A stretch of 64,000 nt of DNA from Gammaproteobacteria bacterium (GCA_022826245.1 JAJDVG010000018.1:1-64000), one strand, 5' to 3'; counted from the first letter of the stretch, positions 16,180-27,615 are shown. Notes: generated from the sequence alone by a model not told the origin. Made by a program: numbers and translations.

Positions 16180-17817
16180 ATGGCCGTACCTCCGGGCGTG
16201 AGCGAACGCGACTTCGATCGGGCATTGCGCGAGTTCGAGAACGCGGTCGGCGAACAATGGGTATTTGCGAGCGACGAGGACGTAGACCTCTATCGCGACG
16301 CCTACTCGATATACAAGGGAGATCCCGAGGATCGTACCGCCGCCGCGGCGGTTGCGCCGTATACGGTCGAGGAAGTCCAGGCGGTCGTGCGCACGGCCAA
16401 CCGCTACCGCATTCCGATCTATCCGATCTCCACGGGCAAGAACCTCGGCTACGGTGGCTCGGCGCCGAATCTCTCCGGCAGCGTCGTGCTGGATCTCAAA
16501 CGCATGAACCGGATCCTCGAGATCAGCGAACGCAACGCTTCCGTACTCGTCGAGCCCGGTGTCAGCTATTTCGATCTTTACCGCTACATCCAGGAGCGAG
16601 GGCTCAAGCTCTGGGTCGATGTCCCGGATCCGGGATGGGGCAGCCTGATCGGCAATGCCGTGGATCACGGCGGCGGTTACACGCAGCCCCAGTTTCGCAA
16701 CCATTTCGACGCGCATTGCGGCATGGAGATCGTGCTGCCGGACGGCGATCTGCTGCGCACGGGCATGGGCGCGCTGCCCGGCAGCGAATCCTGGCAGCAG
16801 TACAAGTTCGGCGCCGGGCCGTGGATCGATGGCCTGTTCTCTCAGTCGAACTACGGGGTCGTAACGAAGATGGGGTTCTGGCTCATGCCGGAGCCGGACG
16901 CCTACCTGACCGGCACCGTGCACGTGCCGAAACACGACGACCTGATCCCGCTCGTCGACATTCTGAACTTTCTCGAGAACACGGGCGTCGTCAACGGAAT
17001 GCCGCGGCTCGGTTCGATGGTCGGGGGAGGCAGGTTGCAATCGGAGCCCGAGCTGCAGGCGCTGCTGGCGCGCGGCGCGTCGACCGCGGAACTCGAGGAG
17101 TACGCTGCCGTAGCCGGCCGCGGTTACTGGAGCTGCACGGTCAAGTTCTACGGTCCCGAGAAGGCGATTGCGGCGAACTGGGAATACGCTCGGGAAAAGT
17201 TCTCGGCGATCCCGGGGGCGACGTTCGTGGACGGCGAGTCGTACCGGTTCCCGTTGACCGCCGAACAGATCGAGGACATCACCCGCGGTCAGGCGGACGG
17301 TACGGGCGACAGCGCGCTGCCGGATTTCGGCGTGCCGAGTCTCGTGACGTTCTCGGCCGGCGCACGCAGCGAGACGAACCCGAACCCGAGCTCGGGGCAT
17401 GTCTGGTTCTCGCCGATCATTCCGCGCAGCGGGGAAGCGATCATCGAGGCCAACCGCGTCTTTGCCGAGGCGGCCGGCGAACTCGGGCTCCCCGTGGCGG
17501 CAGCGGGATTCAGCCTGCCGGCGACCTACTGGAATCGATCGTTCATGTATCTCTACGGGTTTCCGATCAGCGAAGATCCCGAGGCCAATCGCAGGACGCG
17601 AGAGGTGTTCGAACGCCTCGTTCGAATCGCGGCCGAGCACGGCTGGGGCGAATATCGCACGGCGCCAGCGTTTCAGGATACGGTGGCCGACACGTACTCG
17701 TTCAACGACCATGCGCTCAGACGCTTCAACGAGCGACTGAAGGACGCGATCGACCCGAACGGTATCGTCGCGGCAGGCCGCTACGGCATCTGGCCCAGGC
17801 ACATGCGGGGGGCATGA
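16180..17817 (+). CDS. FAD-dependent 4-alkylphenol dehydrogenase flavoprotein (p-cresol methylhydroxylase / vanillyl-alcohol oxidase family)
   Basis: 545 residues, cytoplasmic-looking N-terminus. The FAD domain shows [16 protein letters not shown] and [20 protein letters not shown]; the substrate and cap domain ends with [23 protein letters not shown] and [25 protein letters not shown], the usual ending of the VAO/PCMH family. Such enzymes oxidise para-alkylphenols or aromatic alcohols. The next gene encodes a small cytochrome c and overlaps by four bases (ATGA), so this is the cytochrome-linked dehydrogenase type and not an oxidase. The substrate is unknown: p-cresol, 4-ethylphenol, eugenol-like or lignin-derived phenols are candidates. 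The covalent-flavin residue was not identified with certainty. Confidence 0.88.
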
Positions 17818-18158
17818 TCGTGTCGCGAACGCTTTTGTTGTCCGGCGCGCTGGCGCTGATTTTGGCTGGCTGGACAAGCGCGGCGAGCGCGCAGGACGCC
17901 GTCGAGCAGCGCGGCAAGGAAGTCTTTGACTATTGGTGCGATGCCTGCCACGGGGACGGGCCGGGCAGGCCGGGTACGGCGGCGCTCGAAGCGCTCTACA
18001 ACGGTGAAAAACCGGCATTGATCGAGGACCGCGACGACCTTCTGCCCGAACTCACGCGGGCGTTCGTCCGCGACGGTATTTCGGTCATGCCGTTCTTCCG
18101 CAAGACCGAGATCAGCGACGCCGATCTCGATGCGCTCGCGGCCTATCTCGCGCCCTGA
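17814..18158 (+). CDS. Small c-type cytochrome, partner of the flavoprotein
   Basis: 114 residues from an ATG overlapping the flavoprotein stop. The signal peptide ends at SAASAQ (27), so it acts in the periplasm. The haem motif is CDACH at residues 42-46, and a distal Met is likely in VMPFFRK. Size and position match the cytochrome subunit (PchC-like) of p-cresol methylhydroxylase, which accepts electrons from FAD and passes them to the respiratory chain. The flavoprotein has no visible signal, so in such systems it is thought to be exported with the cytochrome or by another route. Confidence 0.88.
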
Positions 18159-18215
18159 CGCCGGTCGACCGGAAAACGCGCCGTTACGCCGGGTGATCGG
18201 CAACAGGGAGCCACG

Positions 18216-19640
18216 ATGAAACAACTGCTTGTCACGGCCGTGCTTGCACTGATGCCATTCGCGCTTGCAGCACAGGACAGCGACCGGCCGGACATACTGT
18301 TCATTGCCGTCGACGACCTCAATGACTGGGTCGGAGTGTTCGGCGGCAATCCCCAGGCGAAGACGCCGAACATGGACCGGCTGGCTGCGCGCGGCATCAT
18401 GTTCGCCAACGCACATTCGCCGTCGGTGATCTGCAATCCCTCGCGCACGGCGTTGCTGACGGGCCTGAGGCCATCGACCAGTGGCGTCTATGACAACGAT
18501 CCCGACTGGCGCGAGGAGGAGGTGTTCGCCGGTCTGCCGACGCTGCCAAGGCATTTTCGCGATAACGGCTACCGGACGTTCGGCGCCGGCAAGCTGTTTC
18601 ATGCCCACACATTCGGCGGTACGAGTTCGCATGAGGGTCTGAACGACACGACCGCCTGGGATGCGTTTCATCCTTCGCTGACGCGGCAGCTTCCCGACGA
18701 GATTCGACCGCCGTTCCCGCCGGCCAACGGCAGTCCGCTCGGTACGGCCTTCGATTGGTCGGTCGTCGTCGCCGACGACATGGCGCTCGGCGACGGGCAG
18801 GTCACGGCATGGATCGAACGTCAGCTCGGCGCGGAGACCGGATCGCCAAGATTCATCGCGGCCGGCATCTACCGCCCGCATTTGCCCTGGTATGTGCCGC
18901 AGAAGTATTTCGACATGCACCCGCTCGAGGATATCGTGCTGCCGGAAACGATCCCTGACGATCTGGAGGACGTGCCGGAGATCGCCCGCGCCAGCTACCT
19001 CGATTCGACCGAATGGCACGACTGGATCGAGGAATCGGGCAGGTGGGCGGAGGCCGTGCAGGCTTATCTCGCGAGCACGAGCTACGCCGACGCGATGGTC
19101 GGGCGCCTGCTCGATGCGCTCGACAGCAGCGGTCGCGCCGGGAACACGATCATCGTGCTCTGGAGCGACCACGGCTATCACCTGGGCGAGAAGGAACGCT
19201 GGCGCAAGATGACGCTGTGGGAAGAATCGACGCGCGTGCCGTTGATCATCGTTGCCCCGGGCGTATCGACGCCGGGCACACGCAGCGAGGAAGCGGTGTC
19301 CCTCATGGACCTGTATCCGACGCTCGCGGAGCTTGCCGGGCTCGAGACGCCCGGCCACGTCGAGGGTCAGAGCCTCGTCCCGCTGATTCGCAATCCCGAT
19401 GCCGTGCGCGATGAGCCGGCGCTGACAACGTTCTTCTACAACTACCACTCGGTGCGAACCGAACGTTACCGATACACGCGTTACGCGGACGGTTCCGAAG
19501 AACTCTACGATCACGAGACCGATCCGAACGAGTGGGAAAACCTTGCGGACCGTTCACGTTACGACGAGCTCAAGGCCGAGCTCGCCCGCTGGATACCGGC
19601 GGTCAACGCCGAATCGTTGTCCGAGAGTCCCGGCCCGTAG
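18216..19640 (+). CDS. Type I sulfatase, iduronate-sulfatase-like, secreted
   Basis: 474 residues with a signal ending at ALAAQ (20). The start DRPDILFIAVDDLNDWVGVFGG and the signature CNPSRTALLTGLRPS (Cys73) mark an S1 sulfatase with serine in the CxPSR core. Further motifs are GAGKLFH, IVLWSDHGYHLGEKERW and the C-terminal TRYADGSEELYDHETDPNEWENL. This pattern is typical of the iduronate-2-sulfatase branch common in marine polysaccharide degraders. The substrate is unknown. It follows the cytochrome gene by 57 bases and is followed by the hemerythrin gene after 27 bases. Confidence 0.9.
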   Translation: MKQLLVTAVLALMPFALAAQDSDRPDILFIAVDDLNDWVGVFGGNPQAKTPNMDRLAARGIMFANAHSPSVICNPSRTALLTGLRPSTSGVYDNDPDWREEEVFAGLPTLPRHFRDNGYRTFGAGKLFHAHTFGGTSSHEGLNDTTAWDAFHPSLTRQLPDEIRPPFPPANGSPLGTAFDWSVVVADDMALGDGQVTAWIERQLGAETGSPRFIAAGIYRPHLPWYVPQKYFDMHPLEDIVLPETIPDDLEDVPEIARASYLDSTEWHDWIEESGRWAEAVQAYLASTSYADAMVGRLLDALDSSGRAGNTIIVLWSDHGYHLGEKERWRKMTLWEESTRVPLIIVAPGVSTPGTRSEEAVSLMDLYPTLAELAGLETPGHVEGQSLVPLIRNPDAVRDEPALTTFFYNYHSVRTERYRYTRYADGSEELYDHETDPNEWENLADRSRYDELKAELARWIPAVNAESLSESPGP

Positions 19641-19667
19641 CCGCGGCGTTTCCCGGAGATCAGGGAC

Positions 19668-20219
19668 TTGGCAGGGATCATCGACGATCTGCACCAGGAT
19701 CACATCAACGCCGCGCGCGTGCTGAAGATCGCCGAGCGAGCGCTCGTTTCGATCAAGCGGGGCGAGAGCGTGGACTTCGCCCTGCTCGAAGATGCCATGC
19801 GCTATATCACCGGGTACTCCGACACCTGCCATCATCCGCTCGAGGATGTCGTGTTCCTCCACCTCAGGAAGCGGGCTCCGCAGATGGCGGATGAAATCGA
19901 CGCCATCGCTGCCGAACATGAATCGATCATCGGCAAGGGCAAGCGATTCCTCGATTCGGTCGTCGCTGTCGGCGAGGACGCCTTCGTGTCGAGAGACGAC
20001 CTGGTCCGGATCGGGCGCGCGTACGTCGAGACGCTGTGGAAACACATGAGTATCGAGGAAGCGAGCCTGTTCCCCGCCGCGGCAACGGTGCTGGACCAGT
20101 CGGATTGGGACAGTGTGCGGCAACAATTCGACTACGGGCCCGATCCCCTGTTCGGTACCGCGATCGATCAGGACTACGAACGACTCTGGAAGCTCATTCA
20201 GCTTCATGACCCGGGCTGA
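19668..20219 (+). CDS. Hemerythrin/HHE domain protein
   Basis: 183 residues from a TTG start at 19668 with GGAG and CAGGGA just upstream. Iron-ligand-type residues are seen in IIDDLHQDHIN, SDTCHHPLEDVVFLHL, AIAAEHESII and TLWKHMSIEEASLFP, the H/HxxxE pattern of the four-helix hemerythrin-like fold that binds a di-iron centre. It has no signal peptide and is cytoplasmic. Members bind oxygen or nitric oxide or help repair iron-sulfur centres; which applies here is unknown. It sits directly before the DUF3604-foldase-HupE operon (gap about 50 bases) and may be its first gene. Confidence 0.85.
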   Translation: MAGIIDDLHQDHINAARVLKIAERALVSIKRGESVDFALLEDAMRYITGYSDTCHHPLEDVVFLHLRKRAPQMADEIDAIAAEHESIIGKGKRFLDSVVAVGEDAFVSRDDLVRIGRAYVETLWKHMSIEEASLFPAAATVLDQSDWDSVRQQFDYGPDPLFGTAIDQDYERLWKLIQLHDPG

Positions 20220-20268
20220 AGATACCGGGCCGACGGCGGTTTTGCCCGCCTGGTCGCGAGACAGTAAG

Positions 20269-22164
20269 ATGGCGCTCGTCAAACCACCGTCCCGGACAAC
20301 CGTGTCGAAGCACCGGGGGAACTCAAGAACATCCGGACCCTGTGTAAGCTGCGTCTCGGCTTTGCGGCGCCGTTACGTTGCCATGGCAGTGTCCATGTCC
20401 GTTGCCGCTGTCTGCAACGCAGCGTTCGTTTCCGTCGTGACGGCTCAGCCAGTTGCCGAACGCCACGTTTTCTTTGGCGATCTGCATCTGCACACGAGCT
20501 ATTCTCTCGACGCCGCGGCCGTGAAGACCGAGACCACGCCGGACGACGCGTATCGGTTCGCCAAGGGTGAGCCCGTCAGGTATTACGACAGAACCGTCGT
20601 ACGCCACACGCCGCTTGATTTCCTCGCCGTGACCGACCATGCGGAATACCTCGGCAACGTTCAACTCGCGTTGCAGGGCGACATCGACCTGCCCGGCGAC
20701 GGCTGGCAACGGCTGTTCGCGCATGACGGCGGTCCGGTCATGTTCGAGTTCATGGCCCGGGTCAACCGCGGGCTGTTTGGAGAAGACACGCCTGGGCTCT
20801 CGAATCCGGCCCTCGTCGCCGGTCACTGGCGCGACATCATCGACGCGGCGGAACGTCATTACGAACCCGGACGATTCACGAGTTTCGTCGGATTCGAATA
20901 CTCGCCGAACATTCGGGCGACCCCATCGGCCCACCTGCATCGCAACGTCATTTTTCGCGGCCCGGACTACCCGGACATGCCGTTCGCGTCGACCGATTCC
21001 CTGAATCCCGAGTCGCTTTGGGCCTATGCCGACGCCAATCGAGAACGGGGCATCGATTCGCTCATGATCCCGCACAACACCAATATCAGTTACGGGCGGG
21101 CTTTCAGCTTCGAAGACGTGGACGGTGAGCCGATCGATGCCGAATACGCTGCAACCCGGGCGCGCAATGAGCCGCTGGTCGAAATCACGCAGAACAAGGG
21201 CACGACCGAAACGCGGCCTGAAATCTCGCCCGACGACGAGTTCGCCGACTTCGAACTGATCGACGCCGGCAGGGACCAGCCGGGCGGAAGTTACGTTCGG
21301 CCCGGTCTCCTGCGCGGTCTGGAAATTGCGGAGCGAATCGGGGTCAATCCTTTCGAACAGGGTTTCATCGGGTCGACGGATTTTCATTCCGGCCTTTCGA
21401 CAAGCGAAGAGGACAACTTCCCGGGCGCTTTGGGTCTCAGCGACAGTCACCGGGATCCGGTCATGATCCTGCAGGATCTTTCGCCGATCATCGGCAGCCC
21501 GCTGGCGGCGCTCAGTGCGTCGGGTATCGCCGGTGTGTGGGCCGAAGAAAATACCCGCGAGTCGATCTTCGATGCGCTTCGGAGGCGCGAGGCGTTTGCG
21601 ACGTCGGGACCGCTGATTCGGGTGCGCATGTTCGCCGGTTGGGGCGACGCCAATGAACTTGGGGACGGGCCCGACTGGGCCGGTCGGGCTTACGAGTGGG
21701 GCGTCCCGATGGGGGGCGCGCTTGCCGGGCGAGAAGAACCGCGGGGGCCGGAATTCGTCGTACACGCATCGAAAGATCCGTTCTCCGGCAACCTGGATCG
21801 GATCCAGATCGTCAAACTCTGGCGCCGTAACGGCCGCTCGTTCGAAAGGGTCTACGATGTCGCATGGTCGCCCGACCGCGCCGTCGACGACGCAACGGGC
21901 CGCCTGGAGCCCGTCGGCAATACGGTGGATGCCGAAACTGCTACCTACGAAAATACGATCGGGGCGGCAGAGCTCTTCGGGACGTGGCGCGATCCTGACT
22001 TCGATCCGGCCGAGAGAGCGCTCTACTACGCGCGCGTGATCGAGATACCGACACCGCGCTGGGCCACGTATCTGTCGGTCGAGAGCGGCGTTCCTCTGGG
22101 TGAAGGCATCCCGGCATGGCTTCAGGAGCGAGCCTGGACGTCGCCAGTCTATTACACGCCGTAA
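20269..22164 (+). CDS. DUF3604 family exported protein (paralogue 1)
   Basis: 631 residues from the ATG at 20269; starts at a TTG near 20361 or the ATG at 20383 would give a more usual signal peptide (RRRYVAMAVSMSVAAVCNAAFVSVVTAQ), so the start is uncertain. The mature protein begins HVFFGDLHLHTSYSLDA (His pair near residue 73), followed by TDHAEYLG, SFVGFEYS, PHNTN and GSTDFHSG. These His/Asp clusters resemble a PHP-like metal-dependent phosphoesterase or amidohydrolase site. The family is uncharacterised. It shares most motifs with the next gene, 14 bases downstream. Confidence 0.85.
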   Translation: MALVKPPSRTTVSKHRGNSRTSGPCVSCVSALRRRYVAMAVSMSVAAVCNAAFVSVVTAQPVAERHVFFGDLHLHTSYSLDAAAVKTETTPDDAYRFAKGEPVRYYDRTVVRHTPLDFLAVTDHAEYLGNVQLALQGDIDLPGDGWQRLFAHDGGPVMFEFMARVNRGLFGEDTPGLSNPALVAGHWRDIIDAAERHYEPGRFTSFVGFEYSPNIRATPSAHLHRNVIFRGPDYPDMPFASTDSLNPESLWAYADANRERGIDSLMIPHNTNISYGRAFSFEDVDGEPIDAEYAATRARNEPLVEITQNKGTTETRPEISPDDEFADFELIDAGRDQPGGSYVRPGLLRGLEIAERIGVNPFEQGFIGSTDFHSGLSTSEEDNFPGALGLSDSHRDPVMILQDLSPIIGSPLAALSASGIAGVWAEENTRESIFDALRRREAFATSGPLIRVRMFAGWGDANELGDGPDWAGRAYEWGVPMGGALAGREEPRGPEFVVHASKDPFSGNLDRIQIVKLWRRNGRSFERVYDVAWSPDRAVDDATGRLEPVGNTVDAETATYENTIGAAELFGTWRDPDFDPAERALYYARVIEIPTPRWATYLSVESGVPLGEGIPAWLQERAWTSPVYYTP

Positions 22165-22178
22165 GCCATGACCTGAAG

Positions 22179-24191
22179 ATGCCCAAAGATGCTGTCGCCG
22201 CAACGGTCGGCCGTCTGAATGCGCCGCGAAATCCTGTCGGCGCAATGCTCGTCGGTCTGAAGACGCTGCAGATCGCAGCCGTCGCGGCGGCCGCTGCCCC
22301 GAAGACGCCGCGCAACGCGGTCGCCACAGCGGTTGTTTGCCTGCTTGCGGCTTGTGGACAGGGGCGAGACGCCTTCGAGGACGGCAACGATCAGGCCCCG
22401 GCTACCGGGCTTGCCGATGAAGTCAATGCTGCGGCGATGCCCGAACAGGCAGAGGATCGGGTCATCCTCTGGGGCGACACCCATCTGCATACCCTGAACT
22501 CCACCGACGCTTACGAAAGCGGTATGGCCAACGCGGATATCGACACGGCGTTTCGCTATGCGAAGGGTTTCCCGGTCGTTCATCCGCGCACCGGTCTCAG
22601 GATCCGGATCGACGAGCCGCTCGATTTCCTTGTCGTTGCGGATCATGCGGAAATGCTCGGCATGTTCCCGCGGCTTCGGGACCGCGATCCCGACGTGCTC
22701 GCAACCGCGGGCGGACAGGAGCTGTTGGCGCTCTTTGAGGAGGGAGCGGACACGGCTTTCGGCGCTCTCGTCAGGCTGGCGGTGGACCCGACGGACAGCG
22801 CCATTGCCGACGACTTGAACGCGCCGTCGATACGGCAGACGAGCTGGGATGCTCAGGTCGATGCCGCGGAGCGTCACAACGACCCCGGGAACTTCACGGC
22901 GCTCAACGGCTGGGAGTGGAGTTCGACCCCGGGCGGTCTGAATCTGCACCGGGTGGTCTTCACGCCGGCCGATGCCGATACGGCCAGGCAGTTCCTGCCG
23001 TTCAGCAATTTCGACAGCATCGACCCGGAAGACCTGTGGGCGTATCTGCGTGACGTACGCGAGCGCACGGGCACCGACTTTGTCGCCATACCTCACAACT
23101 CCAACCTCTCGAACGGACTCATGTTTCAGACGGTGCGCGAGGGCGGACTCCCGTTCGAATCCGACTATGCTCGCGAGCGCATGGCCTGGGAACCGGTCGT
23201 CGAGATAACGCAGTACAAGGGAACGTCGGAGACCCATCCGGCACTCTCGCCCACGGACGAGTTTGCCGACTTCGAGATTCGGAACATTCTGCTGACGGGC
23301 GCTCCGGCGATGCCGGAACCCGGTTCATACGTTCGCAGCGCGCTGCTCCAGGGTCTGTCTCAGGAAGCCGATATCGGCGTCAATCCGTTCCAGTTCGGGC
23401 TGATCGGCGCCAGCGACAGTCACACCGGGTTCGCGTCCGTCACGGAAACCGACTTCCTCGGCAAGTCGGGGGAGGATCTGCTGCCGGAGGAACGCGCTGC
23501 CGGGAATCTGGGCGACGTCTTCGGCGGCTGGCAGGTTTCCGCGTCGGGTCTCGCGGCCGTCTGGGCCGACCGAAACGACCGCCAAGCCGTTTTCGACGCG
23601 TTCAAGCGGCGCGAAGTGTACGCGACGACGGGGCCGCGCATCGCCCTGCGCCTGTTCGCCGGTTACGACTTCGCGCCGGGCGATGAGGATGCCCGCGATC
23701 TGGGCATGGAAGGCTATCGGCGGGGCGTGCCGATGGGCGGCCTGCTGCTCCCCGCGGAAGACGGCGCCGCTCCGGCATTCGTCATCGCGGCGGCAAGGGA
23801 CCCGGCTTCGGCACTGCTCGACCGGATTCAGGTGGTCAAGGGGTGGCGCGATGCCGCAGGCGCTCTTCACGAGAGAATTTTCGACGTTGCCTGGTCCGGC
23901 CAACGTGAAGTCGGCGCCGACGGCAACCTCGAACCGGTTGGCGACACCGTCGACTCGGCAACGTCACGGTACACGAACACCATCGGTGCGGCGGAACTCG
24001 CGGCGCATTGGCGCGACCCTGAATTCGATCCGGCGGAAGCGGCGTTTTACTACGTTCGCGTGCTCGAGATCCCGACGCCGCGCCACCACGTCTCCGAAGC
24101 GCTGGCGCTTGGACTGGATCCGGCGGCGCTGGACTTCGCGACAACGATCCAGGAACGCGCGTTTTCGTCTCCCGTATGGTATTCGCCGTGA
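22179..24191 (+). CDS. DUF3604 family lipoprotein (paralogue 2)
   Basis: 670 residues from an ATG at 22179. A lipobox LLAAC lies near residue 60, unusually deep, after a stretch built from degenerate 42-base repeats, so the true start may be later. The DUF3604 body has GDTHLHTLNSTDA, VADHAEMLG, NGWEWSS, PHNSN and GASDSHTGF. The C-terminal third pairs closely with paralogue 1 (FDAFKRREVYATTGP, DRIQVVKGW, NTIGAAELAAHWRDPEFDPAEAAFYYVRVLEIPTP, in pieces). It is probably membrane anchored in the periplasm. Its stop shares one base with the start of the foldase gene. Confidence 0.85.
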   Translation: MPKDAVAATVGRLNAPRNPVGAMLVGLKTLQIAAVAAAAAPKTPRNAVATAVVCLLAACGQGRDAFEDGNDQAPATGLADEVNAAAMPEQAEDRVILWGDTHLHTLNSTDAYESGMANADIDTAFRYAKGFPVVHPRTGLRIRIDEPLDFLVVADHAEMLGMFPRLRDRDPDVLATAGGQELLALFEEGADTAFGALVRLAVDPTDSAIADDLNAPSIRQTSWDAQVDAAERHNDPGNFTALNGWEWSSTPGGLNLHRVVFTPADADTARQFLPFSNFDSIDPEDLWAYLRDVRERTGTDFVAIPHNSNLSNGLMFQTVREGGLPFESDYARERMAWEPVVEITQYKGTSETHPALSPTDEFADFEIRNILLTGAPAMPEPGSYVRSALLQGLSQEADIGVNPFQFGLIGASDSHTGFASVTETDFLGKSGEDLLPEERAAGNLGDVFGGWQVSASGLAAVWADRNDRQAVFDAFKRREVYATTGPRIALRLFAGYDFAPGDEDARDLGMEGYRRGVPMGGLLLPAEDGAAPAFVIAAARDPASALLDRIQVVKGWRDAAGALHERIFDVAWSGQREVGADGNLEPVGDTVDSATSRYTNTIGAAELAAHWRDPEFDPAEAAFYYVRVLEIPTPRHHVSEALALGLDPAALDFATTIQERAFSSPVWYSP

Positions 24192-25063
24192 TGCTGCGCA
24201 AGTTCATCAGTGAGCCGTTGACCCACTTCCTGCTGGCCGGGGCGTTACTCTTCGTCATTGTTTCGCTGTCGCAGGGGCTCCGTGACGACGATCGCACGAT
24301 CACAGTCACCGAGGACGATCTCCTGGAATACTTGCAGGGCCGCGCGCAGGTTTACGATGAAGAGACGTTCGCCGAACTCGTCGATTCGATGTCCGCGGAC
24401 GAGCGCCAGGCGCTGATTCTGGACGTTGCGAGCCAGGAAGCCCTCTACCGCGAGGGTCTGGCCATCAGCCTGCCGGATGTCGACCCGCTGGTGCGTCTGC
24501 GCACGGTTCAGCAGATGCGCCTGTTGCTGATGGAGGAGGCTGCCGCAAACGTCTCGATTGGCGATCGGGACATTGAACGTCATTACGATGAACATCGTGA
24601 CGACTACCGCGTGCCGCCGCGGATCACGTTCACCCACGTGTTCGTCAACGCGAGAGAGGGCGCCGATCGGAGTACGGCGAGGGCGCGAGCATTGCTCGGT
24701 GAACTGCGCGCCAGCGACGTTCCGGCCACGCAAAGCGGCCGGCATGGCGACCGCTTCCTGTATCAGCGCAACTATGCCGACGTGAGCGATCGGCAGGTGC
24801 GATCGCATTTCGGCGACGGTTTCGCAGCCGAGGTGTTCGAACTGGCTCCCGGCGAGTGGAGCGATCCCCTGGCTTCCGATCACGGCTGGCACCTGGTGTT
24901 CGTCACCAGGAAAGCGGGAGCGCGCCTACCCGAGCTTGCGGAGATCGCCGAGCGCGTGCGCGACGACGCGCTGGCGGCGAAACGCGAAGCCGCAGCGCGT
25001 GAAGCGCTCGAGTCGTTGCTGGATGAGTACGAAGTCGTTGTCGCCGTTGACGCGTCGCAATGA
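24191..25063 (+). CDS. Membrane-anchored parvulin-type peptidyl-prolyl isomerase
   Basis: 290 residues. One N-terminal membrane segment (FLLAGALLFVIVSLSQG) anchors it to the inner membrane with the rest outside. A SurA/PpiC-like helical N-domain is followed by a parvulin core: RITFTHVFVNAR, the FGDGFAAEVFELAPGEWSDPLASDHGWHLVFVTRK block in pieces, with the conserved S-x-x-G-WH end. It probably folds or chaperones exported proteins; in this operon the natural clients are the two DUF3604 proteins or the HupE protein. Start and stop overlap both neighbours (TGATG and ATGA), a sign of strict co-production. Confidence 0.88.
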   Translation: MLRKFISEPLTHFLLAGALLFVIVSLSQGLRDDDRTITVTEDDLLEYLQGRAQVYDEETFAELVDSMSADERQALILDVASQEALYREGLAISLPDVDPLVRLRTVQQMRLLLMEEAAANVSIGDRDIERHYDEHRDDYRVPPRITFTHVFVNAREGADRSTARARALLGELRASDVPATQSGRHGDRFLYQRNYADVSDRQVRSHFGDGFAAEVFELAPGEWSDPLASDHGWHLVFVTRKAGARLPELAEIAERVRDDALAAKREAAAREALESLLDEYEVVVAVDASQ

Positions 25064-26049
25064 TGGCCGGTCGCGTTCTCGCCCTGATCCTGTGCATGTT
25101 GGTGTCGATCTCCGTGCGCGCGGACGACAGCCGCCCTTTGATGGTGATCATCGCGGCGCAGGGCGATGGCGTTTATCGCACGACCTGGAAACTGCCGGTC
25201 AACATAGAGCCCCGGCACCTGCCGCAACTCGTCGCGCCGGTCGGCTGCGAGATCGCCGGCGACCGCAGGTCGTGGTCCGATGCCCTTGGGTATTGGGCCG
25301 AAGAACAATGGCGCTGCGAGAACGGTCTGTCCGGCGCCGCCGTCGCGATCGATTACCCGTTCGCGAACCCGAACCTGGCGACGATTGCCCGCGTCAGATC
25401 GGAGGACAACGCCGAAAGGACGCTGTTCGCCCCGCCGCGGGAATCGCGACTGCTGATTCCGTCGGACAACCGCGGCGGCAACATCTTCGCCGACTTTCTG
25501 GTGCTCGGTTTCGAGCACATCTGGAAGGGGCTGGACCACCTTCTGTTCGTTGGCGGACTGATCTTCATTGCGCGAACCCGACGCGCGGTGATTACGACCA
25601 TCACCGGGTTCACGATCGCCCACTCGATCACGCTGGCGCTTTCGGCGCTCGACATGGTCCGGCTGCCGATCGCTGCGATCGAGAGCGCCATCGCGTTGAG
25701 CATAGTTTTTCTCGCGATCGAGATCGTCAAGGGTCCGCGCGATACGCTGACCTGGCGGAGGCCACTCGTCGTGTCCGGCAGCTTCGGTCTCTTGCACGGT
25801 TTCGGATTTGCCGCCGTGTTGCGCGAGATCGGTTTGCCTCAGGCGGGACTGGTGCAAGGCCTTTTCGCGTTCAATGTCGGCATAGAATTGGGTCAGATTC
25901 TGTTCGCGGCAGTCCTGATATCGATTCTTGCCGCAGTGCGGCGCATCCCTGTGGGCCGTCTGCGGGTCGATCTCGCACAGCGCCTTGCCGGCTACGCCAT
26001 TGGCGTAACATCGAGTTTCTGGCTGATCACCAGGGTGCTCGTTACGTGA
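25060..26049 (+). CDS. HupE/UreJ family membrane protein with exported N-terminal domain
   Basis: 329 residues. A signal peptide (VLALILCMLVSISVRA) leads to a roughly 120-residue exported region. A six-helix membrane part starts near residue 140: GFEHIWKGLDHLLFVGGLIF, TITGFTIAHSITLALSAL, SFGLLHGFGFAAVL and FNVGIELGQILFA. The repeated His and Glu in these helices are typical of HupE/UreJ_2 proteins, which are linked to nickel or cobalt movement in characterised relatives. The role here is unknown. No hydrogenase or urease genes are near, so the partner is more likely the DUF3604 proteins, which carry metal-site-like motifs. It overlaps the foldase gene by four bases. Confidence 0.85.
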   Translation: MMAGRVLALILCMLVSISVRADDSRPLMVIIAAQGDGVYRTTWKLPVNIEPRHLPQLVAPVGCEIAGDRRSWSDALGYWAEEQWRCENGLSGAAVAIDYPFANPNLATIARVRSEDNAERTLFAPPRESRLLIPSDNRGGNIFADFLVLGFEHIWKGLDHLLFVGGLIFIARTRRAVITTITGFTIAHSITLALSALDMVRLPIAAIESAIALSIVFLAIEIVKGPRDTLTWRRPLVVSGSFGLLHGFGFAAVLREIGLPQAGLVQGLFAFNVGIELGQILFAAVLISILAAVRRIPVGRLRVDLAQRLAGYAIGVTSSFWLITRVLVT

Positions 26050-26143
26050 CGACAGCCAGTTGATACTGACGATCCGGTGTGCCGTCTCGGCAATCCTTCC
26101 GGAATTTCGGGCTAAACTCGCGAGAGCGATGACAGGAGCGCGT

Positions 26144-27160
26144 ATGAGAAACGACACTCCATGGGTCCTGGCGGTCCTGCTGTTCGGCGCGACAGCGAAT
26201 GCCCATCACAGCGATGCCGCGCTCGACATGAATGCCCGGGTCGCCTTCCGGGGCACGGTCAGCGAATACAGCATGCGGAATCCGCACAGCTACTTCACGG
26301 TCGACGTGACGGGCGACGACGGTACGGCGGTGACCTGGACGGTACAGATGGCCTCTGCGATCTCGATCCGGCGCAGCGGGTGGACGCCCGACTCGCTGGC
26401 TGTCGGCGACGAGGTCAGCGTCGCGGTGCGTCCGGCCCGGGACGGTCGAGCCTACGGCCTGCTCGCGGCGATAGAGAAGGACGGCGTAGCGATCTCCAAC
26501 GAACGCGTGTCGGGACGCGTAACGGCGAGCACGACGACGATCGAGGGTCGTTGGTTCATCGACCGCGAAAGCCTCGGCGACGATTATCCCGGCGGCCTTG
26601 ACCAGCTCATGGCGCGCGAGCTGACGTTGACGGAAGCCGGCCGCGCGGCGCAGGCCGCATTCGATCAGAATGCAGACGACAACCCCGAGCTTGCGTGCCT
26701 TTCGAAACCGACGCCGGGCGGACTCGTTTATACCGACCTCTATCCCATGGAGATCGAATTCCTCGATGGCGGCGAGATCATCGTGATCCGCAGCCAGTAT
26801 TTCGATCAGGAGCGGATCGTTTACATGGACGGACGGCCGCACCCGTCGGACGAGCGGATGTATGAGGGCCATTCGATCGGCTGGTGGGAGGACGATGTGC
26901 TCGTCGTCGATACGGTCAATTTTACCGACAATCGCTCGCCCTACCAGAACGGCATACCCTCGGGCGCGCAAAAGCATGTCGTCGAGCGCTATCGGCTCCA
27001 CTCCGACGGCACGCGTTTGCGCGTCGAGTTCACGCTCGAGGACCCCGAGTACATCGTCGGTTCCATGACGCACGCACGCGACCTGGTGTATTCGCCGGAG
27101 ATGGACATGACACCCTTCAACTGCGATCTGGAAACGACACGGCGGTTCGTGCCGAGGTAG
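26144..27160 (+). CDS. DUF6152 domain fused to a second secreted domain
   Basis: 338 residues from an ATG at 26144 with AGGAG seven bases upstream. A signal peptide ends NAHHS. Residues about 20-120 are a DUF6152 domain (AHHSDAALDMNARVAFRGTV, MRNPHSYFTVDV, RRSGWTPDSLAVGDEV). Residues about 125-338 align with the separate protein at 2321-3022 (VYMDGRPHP, GHSIGWWEDDVLVV, EFTLEDPEYIVGSM). It is therefore a natural fusion of two families encoded side by side elsewhere in this window. No catalytic motif is recognised. The gene starts 94 bases after the HupE gene and may be a separate unit. Confidence 0.85.
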   Translation: MRNDTPWVLAVLLFGATANAHHSDAALDMNARVAFRGTVSEYSMRNPHSYFTVDVTGDDGTAVTWTVQMASAISIRRSGWTPDSLAVGDEVSVAVRPARDGRAYGLLAAIEKDGVAISNERVSGRVTASTTTIEGRWFIDRESLGDDYPGGLDQLMARELTLTEAGRAAQAAFDQNADDNPELACLSKPTPGGLVYTDLYPMEIEFLDGGEIIVIRSQYFDQERIVYMDGRPHPSDERMYEGHSIGWWEDDVLVVDTVNFTDNRSPYQNGIPSGAQKHVVERYRLHSDGTRLRVEFTLEDPEYIVGSMTHARDLVYSPEMDMTPFNCDLETTRRFVPR

Positions 27161-27261
27161 CGGGTCCGGCCTCCGGCGCCTGTCGCGCCAGTGAATGGCT
27201 GCGAATGCCGGTCGACGACCGGTAGAATCGGGTTTCTGCCCGCATGCTCTAGGAGAAAACC

Positions 27262-27615
27262 ATGGAACTGGCCGACCGCCAATGCGTACCCTGTCGAGGC
27301 GGTGTCCCGCCGATGGCTTCGGAGGACGCCGAAGCTCTGCTCGCGGAACTCGGCGGGGGCTGGACGCTGAACTCCGCCGGCCATCTCGAACGCGCGTATC
27401 CGTTCGGGAATTTCGTTGCGGCGATGGACTTCGCGAACCGCGTGACGGAAATCGCCGAAGAGCAGGCCCATCATCCGGACCTCTACGTCCGCTGGGGCCA
27501 GTGCACAGTCGAGATATGGACCCACAAGATCAGCGGCCTGACCGAGAGCGACTTCTACCTCGCCGCGAAGATCGATCGGGCGTGGACCCGGGGGCTCGAG
27601 GAACAAACCGGCTGA
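27262..27615 (+). CDS. phhB: Pterin-4a-carbinolamine dehydratase
   Basis: 117 residues. The motif EEQAHHPDLYVRWGQCTVEIWTH (pieces) followed by SGLTESDFYLAAKID is the PCD/DCoH active-site signature, with the His-His pair and the final His. The enzyme dehydrates 4a-hydroxytetrahydrobiopterin to recycle the pterin cofactor of phenylalanine hydroxylase. No hydroxylase gene is nearby, and many bacteria use the protein with other pterin or molybdopterin enzymes. The N-terminus (CVPCRGGVPPMASEDAEAL) is the usual form of the short bacterial family. A TAGAAT box at 27223-27228 may be its -10 element. It is convergent with the lactate permease. Confidence 0.93.
   Translation: MELADRQCVPCRGGVPPMASEDAEALLAELGGGWTLNSAGHLERAYPFGNFVAAMDFANRVTEIAEEQAHHPDLYVRWGQCTVEIWTHKISGLTESDFYLAAKIDRAWTRGLEEQTG

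Follow-up and report, generated by a model that had tools for sequence, protein, structure and literature searches.

Why would two genes for exported proteins of the almost unstudied family DUF3604 share an operon with a parvulin-type foldase and a HupE/UreJ membrane protein? We considered this question for positions 20,269 to 26,049 of a 64,000-nucleotide stretch of DNA from a Gammaproteobacteria bacterium (GCA_022826245.1 JAJDVG010000018.1:1-64000; the window), in which the DUF3604 paralogues P0001 and P0002 are followed by the parvulin P0003 and the HupE protein P0004 (Table 1). Our analysis suggests that the operon encodes exported PHP-fold, metal-dependent hydrolases together with a dedicated parvulin-HupE accessory pair that would fold and metallate them, a reading to which we assign a probability of about one half. 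The association of the families is supported; the mechanism is plausible but unproven.

The His/Asp clusters that had been likened to PHP-type metal sites (GDLHLHT, TDHAE and PHN-N) are present in the DUF3604 proteins, and the putative metal-ligand residues are invariant among relatives. Both window paralogues match PF12228 (curated cut-off 20.4 bits) over model positions 3-591 of 591, and both retain the PHP ligand motifs HxH, (D)H, E, H, H and DxH. Across 47 DUF3604 sequences, H102, H104, D110, D155, H156, E246, H257, H306, D413 and H415 (P0002 numbering) were invariant; all of these except D110 we take to be putative metal ligands, by analogy with known PHP enzymes. An AlphaFold2 model of P0002, made from a 47-sequence alignment (mean predicted local distance difference test score (pLDDT) 86, predicted template modelling score 0.85), was of low confidence in the first 91 residues and mostly above pLDDT 90 in the mature part. 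With VIA-align, its residues 94-486 superposed onto the PHP structures 2anu (Z 16.4, 3.6 Å over 210 residues), 3e38 (Z 16.0) and PsfC (7rty, Z 13.0), with further PHP matches to EndoQ, RNase AM and PolC, well above the Z near 6 reached by unrelated structures. A C-terminal beta-sandwich follows at about residues 487-670. Foldseek alone returned no match at E <0.001 for the whole DUF3604 model, and a sequence search of solved structures gave none for DUF3604 and only unconvincing ones for HupE. The predicted structure thus contains a PHP fold with every PHP ligand position conserved, which answers the structural objection that the original prediction had raised against itself, and on this model DUF3604 belongs in the PHP superfamily as a predicted metallohydrolase.

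Inspected by regular expression and by eye, the export signals of DUF3604 proteins are of the plain Sec or the lipoprotein type. Tat export of metal-loaded enzyme was rejected on this inspection alone, as twin-arginine signals were not consistent. A divergent and longer DUF3604 branch (about 770-780 aa; L253 in genome G112 and L259 in genome G025) is likewise adjoined by parvulin and HupE.

Genomes combine DUF3604 with the parvulin and HupE much more often than chance would allow, so that lack of co-occurrence, named in the original prediction as grounds for refuting it, did not arise. The samples were 274 genomes from the class of the window, 397 from its phylum (at least 95% complete) and 72,556 plasmids. 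In the class sample, 14 genomes carried both a canonical DUF3604 (18 genomes) and the parvulin subfamily (16 genomes; Fisher p = 3e-18), and in the phylum sample 32 combined an intact DUF3604 (33) with the parvulin subfamily (35; Fisher p = 1.4e-42), figures that ignore phylogeny. The two genes lie within 5 kb of each other in 28 of these 32 genomes; G460, G491, G615 and G641 retain both, unlinked. A dedicated HupE scoring at least 229 bits adjoins all 40 parvulin subfamily genes, other HupEs reaching at most 188 bits in the 61 genomes searched. Plasmid records with DUF3604 (78), parvulin (77) and HupE (90) overlap for the most part and come from rhizobia and roseobacters; the rhizobial plasmids are redundant, and these counts too are uncorrected for relatedness. 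Among the matches listed for both families, parvulin and HupE starts were at most 1.3 kb apart in 48 of 49 records, and DUF3604 and parvulin at most 4.4 kb apart in all 43. When the neighbours of 80 DUF3604 loci from named genomes were clustered, parvulin appeared at 22 and HupE at 20, the next commonest family at 8. The distance matrices of the three families also correlate (r 0.48, 0.67 and 0.70, not corrected for species phylogeny). The association is real and widespread.

The HupE partner is a particular one. When 46 HupEs were placed in a tree, every protein linked to a parvulin fell in one group (100/99) and the generic ones apart, and generic HupE_UreJ_2 proteins (PF13795, cut-off 24.5 bits) were rejected as partners because they have no adjoining parvulin and branch outside the linked clade. 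Transmembrane histidines of HupE are conserved in the motifs EHI, GLDHLLF, AHS and LHGFGFA, and the membrane residues H153, H160, H188 and H246 are invariant among 21 aligned linked proteins. Two parvulin-linked HupE-like proteins (L036:816-2942 and L071:4152-6587) are much longer, at 708 and 811 aa. In the predicted HupE model (pLDDT 85), the N-terminal domain resembles the metal binders ZrgA (zinc; Z 9.5) and Ang-1 (9gce; 7.5), with PA4063 at 8.8, although ligand-gated channel domains score similarly. After the signal peptide, most linked HupEs begin with His (A-HExRP), and a sizeable minority, together with that of the window, begin with Asp.

The parvulin belongs to a dedicated subfamily. 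The P0003 domain (Rotamase_2, cut-off 27 bits) is related to Cbf2, SurA and PrsA and represents a short, single-helix subfamily separated from other parvulins by a gap in score (167 versus 82 bits), in whose alignment the C-terminal H234 is invariant and S229 nearly so. On a plasmid of Rhizobium sp. N324 (L302:7909-10150), the parvulin gene is followed by three consecutive genes annotated as HupE/UreJ, with 4-base overlaps.

The pair is not confined to DUF3604: in two unrelated genomes it accompanies exported enzymes of the arginase family. In genome G597, parvulin and HupE are present, DUF3604 is absent, and the pair is set among three arginase-family proteins, all exported, and a TonB receptor lies upstream; two of the three keep the metal motifs GGDHS, DxHxD and DxDxxDP, and one is degenerate. 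On a plasmid of the alphaproteobacterium Novosphingobium sp. RL4, three homologous genes of the arginase family are interspersed with two parvulin-HupE pairs, one of them beside a urease operon. This 20-kb stretch (NZ_CP141945, L330:7877-28002) holds the pairs, the arginase-family genes (all three for exported proteins) and the urease genes, and also encodes a TPR sulfotransferase and a molybdopterin dehydrogenase. The arginase-linked HupEs group together (100/100) inside a supported set of 12 (98/92) that includes the window HupE, and they nest in the DUF3604-linked clade. The simplest reading is that the parvulin-HupE pair passed from serving one metallohydrolase to serving another, and since both client families are exported and have a multinuclear metal site, a maturation pair is favoured over a substrate-specific role.

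Other loci show the cassette whole, rearranged or decaying. The closest relative, in Alteraurantiacibacter (L032), has the identical four-gene order (identities 67.5, 59, 47 and 56%) and shares no further window neighbours except a distant sulfatase. Third-party annotation of Sinorhizobium meliloti plasmid accessoryA (L301) gives DUF3604-DUF3604-isomerase-HupE in the same order; on this conjugative plasmid the cassette has genes for type IV secretion on one side and genes for conjugal transfer on the other. Elsewhere the order varies, parvulin-HupE lying upstream of, or divergent from, DUF3604. In G012 an in-frame deletion fuses the start of the DUF3604 gene to the end of the HupE gene (L020:1216-2217), and in G399 a DUF3604 remnant adjoins an intact parvulin-HupE pair; both decayed copies fit the loss of a formerly whole cassette. 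On an Alisedimentitalea plasmid (L316:6580-13610), the pair adjoins an Opp/Nik-type ABC transporter and DUF3604 is absent from the stretch.

Taken together, we infer that the pair matures the enzymes and that metal is the cargo of HupE, moved in the direction set out here. The hydrolases would leave the cytoplasm unfolded through Sec, and the membrane-anchored parvulin, with its periplasmic domain, would aid their folding. HupE would handle a transition metal for the enzyme site, using the ZrgA/Ang-like domain on its periplasmic side and the histidines of its membrane core. Parvulin-HupE may thus constitute a module, whose client in other bacteria would be exported arginase-family metallohydrolases. 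A broader version, which we hold only tentatively and think somewhat doubtful, is a general and so far undescribed maturation system for exported multinuclear metallohydrolases of at least two unrelated folds (PHP-type and arginase-type), in which HupE would deliver metal at the membrane's outer face and the system as a whole would be the periplasmic counterpart of HypA/HypB. If the pair does load metal after export, this would help to explain how multinuclear sites acquire their metal in the periplasm, a compartment in which nickel chaperones driven by GTP cannot function.

Several observations weigh against folding and metallation by the pair. For those HupE relatives that have been characterised, the direction described is import into the cytoplasm (PMC12537917, PMC11399263), so that metal delivery to the periplasm would be new. 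The mature N-terminus of the window HupE (A-DDSRP, cleavage site by eye) is probably Asp and not His, and so the protein lacks the N-terminal histidine of Ang-1. HupE may supply metal, as the original prediction proposed, but the known relatives import whereas DUF3604 is Sec-exported, and the N-terminal histidine is absent. The HupE-like partners in L036 and L071 are without membrane histidines. In the parvulin, Gln often stands in place of the first catalytic His and no middle catalytic motif can be recognised, which makes its isomerase activity uncertain. The same genome has a second parvulin-HupE pair without an adjoining DUF3604 (L143:6156-8107, contig C7), and a pair in G538 adjoins neither DUF3604 nor an arginase-family client. 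To these must be added the phylogenetic non-independence and plasmid redundancy of the co-occurrence samples. The L143 pair has an HtrA-like protease on one side and a Na:alanine symporter on the other, its HupE has the N-terminal His, and a methylamine dehydrogenase light chain gene lies about 4 kb upstream.

The import direction of known HupEs would be explained directly if the cassette served metal acquisition, DUF3604 cleaving a periplasmic metal-binding or metal-bound molecule, HupE importing the freed metal and the parvulin only folding the enzyme. This matches the anglerase model (PMC12537917), and the TonB/ExbD genes that flank a Ruegeria cassette and the Nik/Opp-type transporter beside the Alisedimentitalea pair point the same way. 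However, the arginase-family clients are explained less well, as arginase products are not metals; the genome of the window has no urease or NiFe hydrogenase in need of metal; and the neighbours of DUF3604 are sometimes sulfatases and acyl-CoA catabolic genes. We therefore regard metal acquisition as unlikely, if not markedly so.

The strictness of the parvulin-HupE pairing would also be expected if the two served membrane assembly and moved no metal, together forming a periplasmic complex that chaperones these hydrolases, the HupE core being a structural anchor. That L036 and L071 have lost their membrane histidines, and that the window HupE has no N-terminal His, would fit such a complex, yet the invariance of the membrane histidines in the 21 aligned partners, and an N-terminal domain that in the predicted model retains a metal-binder fold, make it improbable. 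Least credible is an ordinary catabolic operon in which HupE carries the product of the hydrolase instead of metal and selection for a plasmid-moved catabolic trait keeps the cassette intact. A patchy, plasmid-borne distribution and catabolic neighbours agree with it, but a single clade of HupEs works with two enzyme families whose products are unrelated, and the function-tested HupE relatives carry metal (PMC12537917, PMC11399263). We consider this very unlikely and retain maturation of exported metallohydrolases as the preferred reading.

In the window itself, the four genes are joined as had been described, by a 14-base gap, a TGATG overlap (24189-24193) and an ATGA overlap (25060-25063).

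Table 1. The four genes of the DUF3604-parvulin-HupE operon, with window coordinates
Gene	Product and features	Position	Strand	Family score
P0001	DUF3604 paralogue 1, exported; predicted PHP-fold metallohydrolase with C-terminal beta-sandwich	20269-22164	+	Pfam 632 bits
P0002	DUF3604 paralogue 2, probable lipoprotein (lipobox LAAC); predicted PHP-fold metallohydrolase	22179-24191	+	Pfam 713 bits
P0003	Parvulin-type foldase, one N-terminal membrane helix	24191-25063	+	Rotamase_2 60 bits
P0004	HupE_UreJ_2 membrane protein, signal peptide and N-terminal beta-sandwich domain	25060-26049	+	150 bits

For each of the two DUF3604 genes the start codon is uncertain. An alternative ATG at 20383 would give P0001 a plain Sec signal peptide, and the P0002 start leaves more than 50 residues ahead of the lipobox; as the lipobox lies so far inside the predicted N-terminus, the real gap between the first two genes may exceed 14 bases. 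Genes are co-directional throughout 16180-27615, so the transcript may extend beyond the four, and its limits are not defined by our promoter and terminator scan, in which signals were no commoner than in shuffled sequence.

A hemerythrin gene does lie just upstream (19668-20219, ending 49 bases before the operon), but its link to the system did not hold, a homologue being found in 0 of 80 related loci. The same count rejects the FAD oxidase, cytochrome c, DUF6152 and pterin dehydratase as members. At 16180-18158, the gene for a small c-type cytochrome comes after that for a FAD_binding_4 oxidase, a layout resembling that of flavocytochromes of the p-cresol methylhydroxylase type. A sulfatase at 18216-19640 is akin to choline-sulfatase, yet falls under the NCBIfam cut-off. 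In the whole genome (3.6 Mb, 62 contigs), the two DUF3604 genes of the operon are the only ones. The statement that no hydrogenase or urease lies nearby holds genome-wide, with no match to PF00449 or PF00374 in the available sequence, and we rejected the idea that the pair works for a urease or a NiFe hydrogenase encoded in the same genome, as neither was found there.

As to novelty, a literature search that covered few subscription journals, and is thus weak evidence, turned up no article about the triad or about what DUF3604 does, in line with its description as undescribed; for DUF3604 or HupE with a peptidyl-prolyl isomerase nothing relevant was found, and DUF3604 appeared in one passing mention. 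The component families are already known separately, and annotation pipelines already name them side by side. DUF3604 is widespread, and its placement among PHP enzymes and its near-obligate accessory pair make metal, partner and substrate directly testable.

The nearest described hydrolases are CehA/McbA (NF038032), which likewise combine a PHP-type metallohydrolase, a C-terminal beta region and a signal peptide; the McbA carbamate hydrolase is periplasmic (PMC8292978). Aligned with DUF3604 by hhalign, the CehA/McbA profile gave a probability of 97.3% (E 1.9e-11, 181 columns), and 18 of 47 DUF3604 members match it at E <=0.01. P0001 (18.3 bits) and P0002 (no match) were rejected as CehA/McbA members against the curated cut-off of 80 bits. 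On this profile evidence DUF3604 is a remote relative of CehA/McbA, but it is a distinct Pfam family accompanied by its own parvulin and HupE. By analogy with these remote homologues, it may hydrolyse a small ester, carbamate or amide.

With PpiD, SurA and NifM, P0003 has the parvulin domain in common. It differs in belonging to a short, single-helix subfamily, which scores separate cleanly from PpiD. PpiD and NifM likewise assist other proteins. With the Ang-1-HupE/UreJ-2 anglerases (9GCE), the window HupE shares a signal peptide and a HupE_UreJ_2 membrane domain, and its predicted periplasmic beta-sandwich may be of the Ang-1 type, but it differs from them at its N-terminus, where Ang-1 is reported to bind copper and nickel through a histidine; the main text of the anglerase paper mentions neither DUF3604 nor an isomerase (PMC12537917). 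A published parallel in organisation is that of the MefH/GdmH operons, where metallohydrolase genes, with tandem paralogues among them, stand in one operon with metal-maturation genes and hupE: the genes for the nickel ureohydrolases MefH and DmgH accompany those for HypA/HypB, which are nickel chaperones, and in the metformin operon a HupE homologue lies directly downstream of paralogues of which one is catalytic and one degenerate (PMC11399263). The chaperones there are HypA/HypB, whereas here the enzymes are exported, the window client has a predicted PHP fold, and a parvulin takes their position; in a periplasm without GTP for HypB, such a parvulin could replace them.

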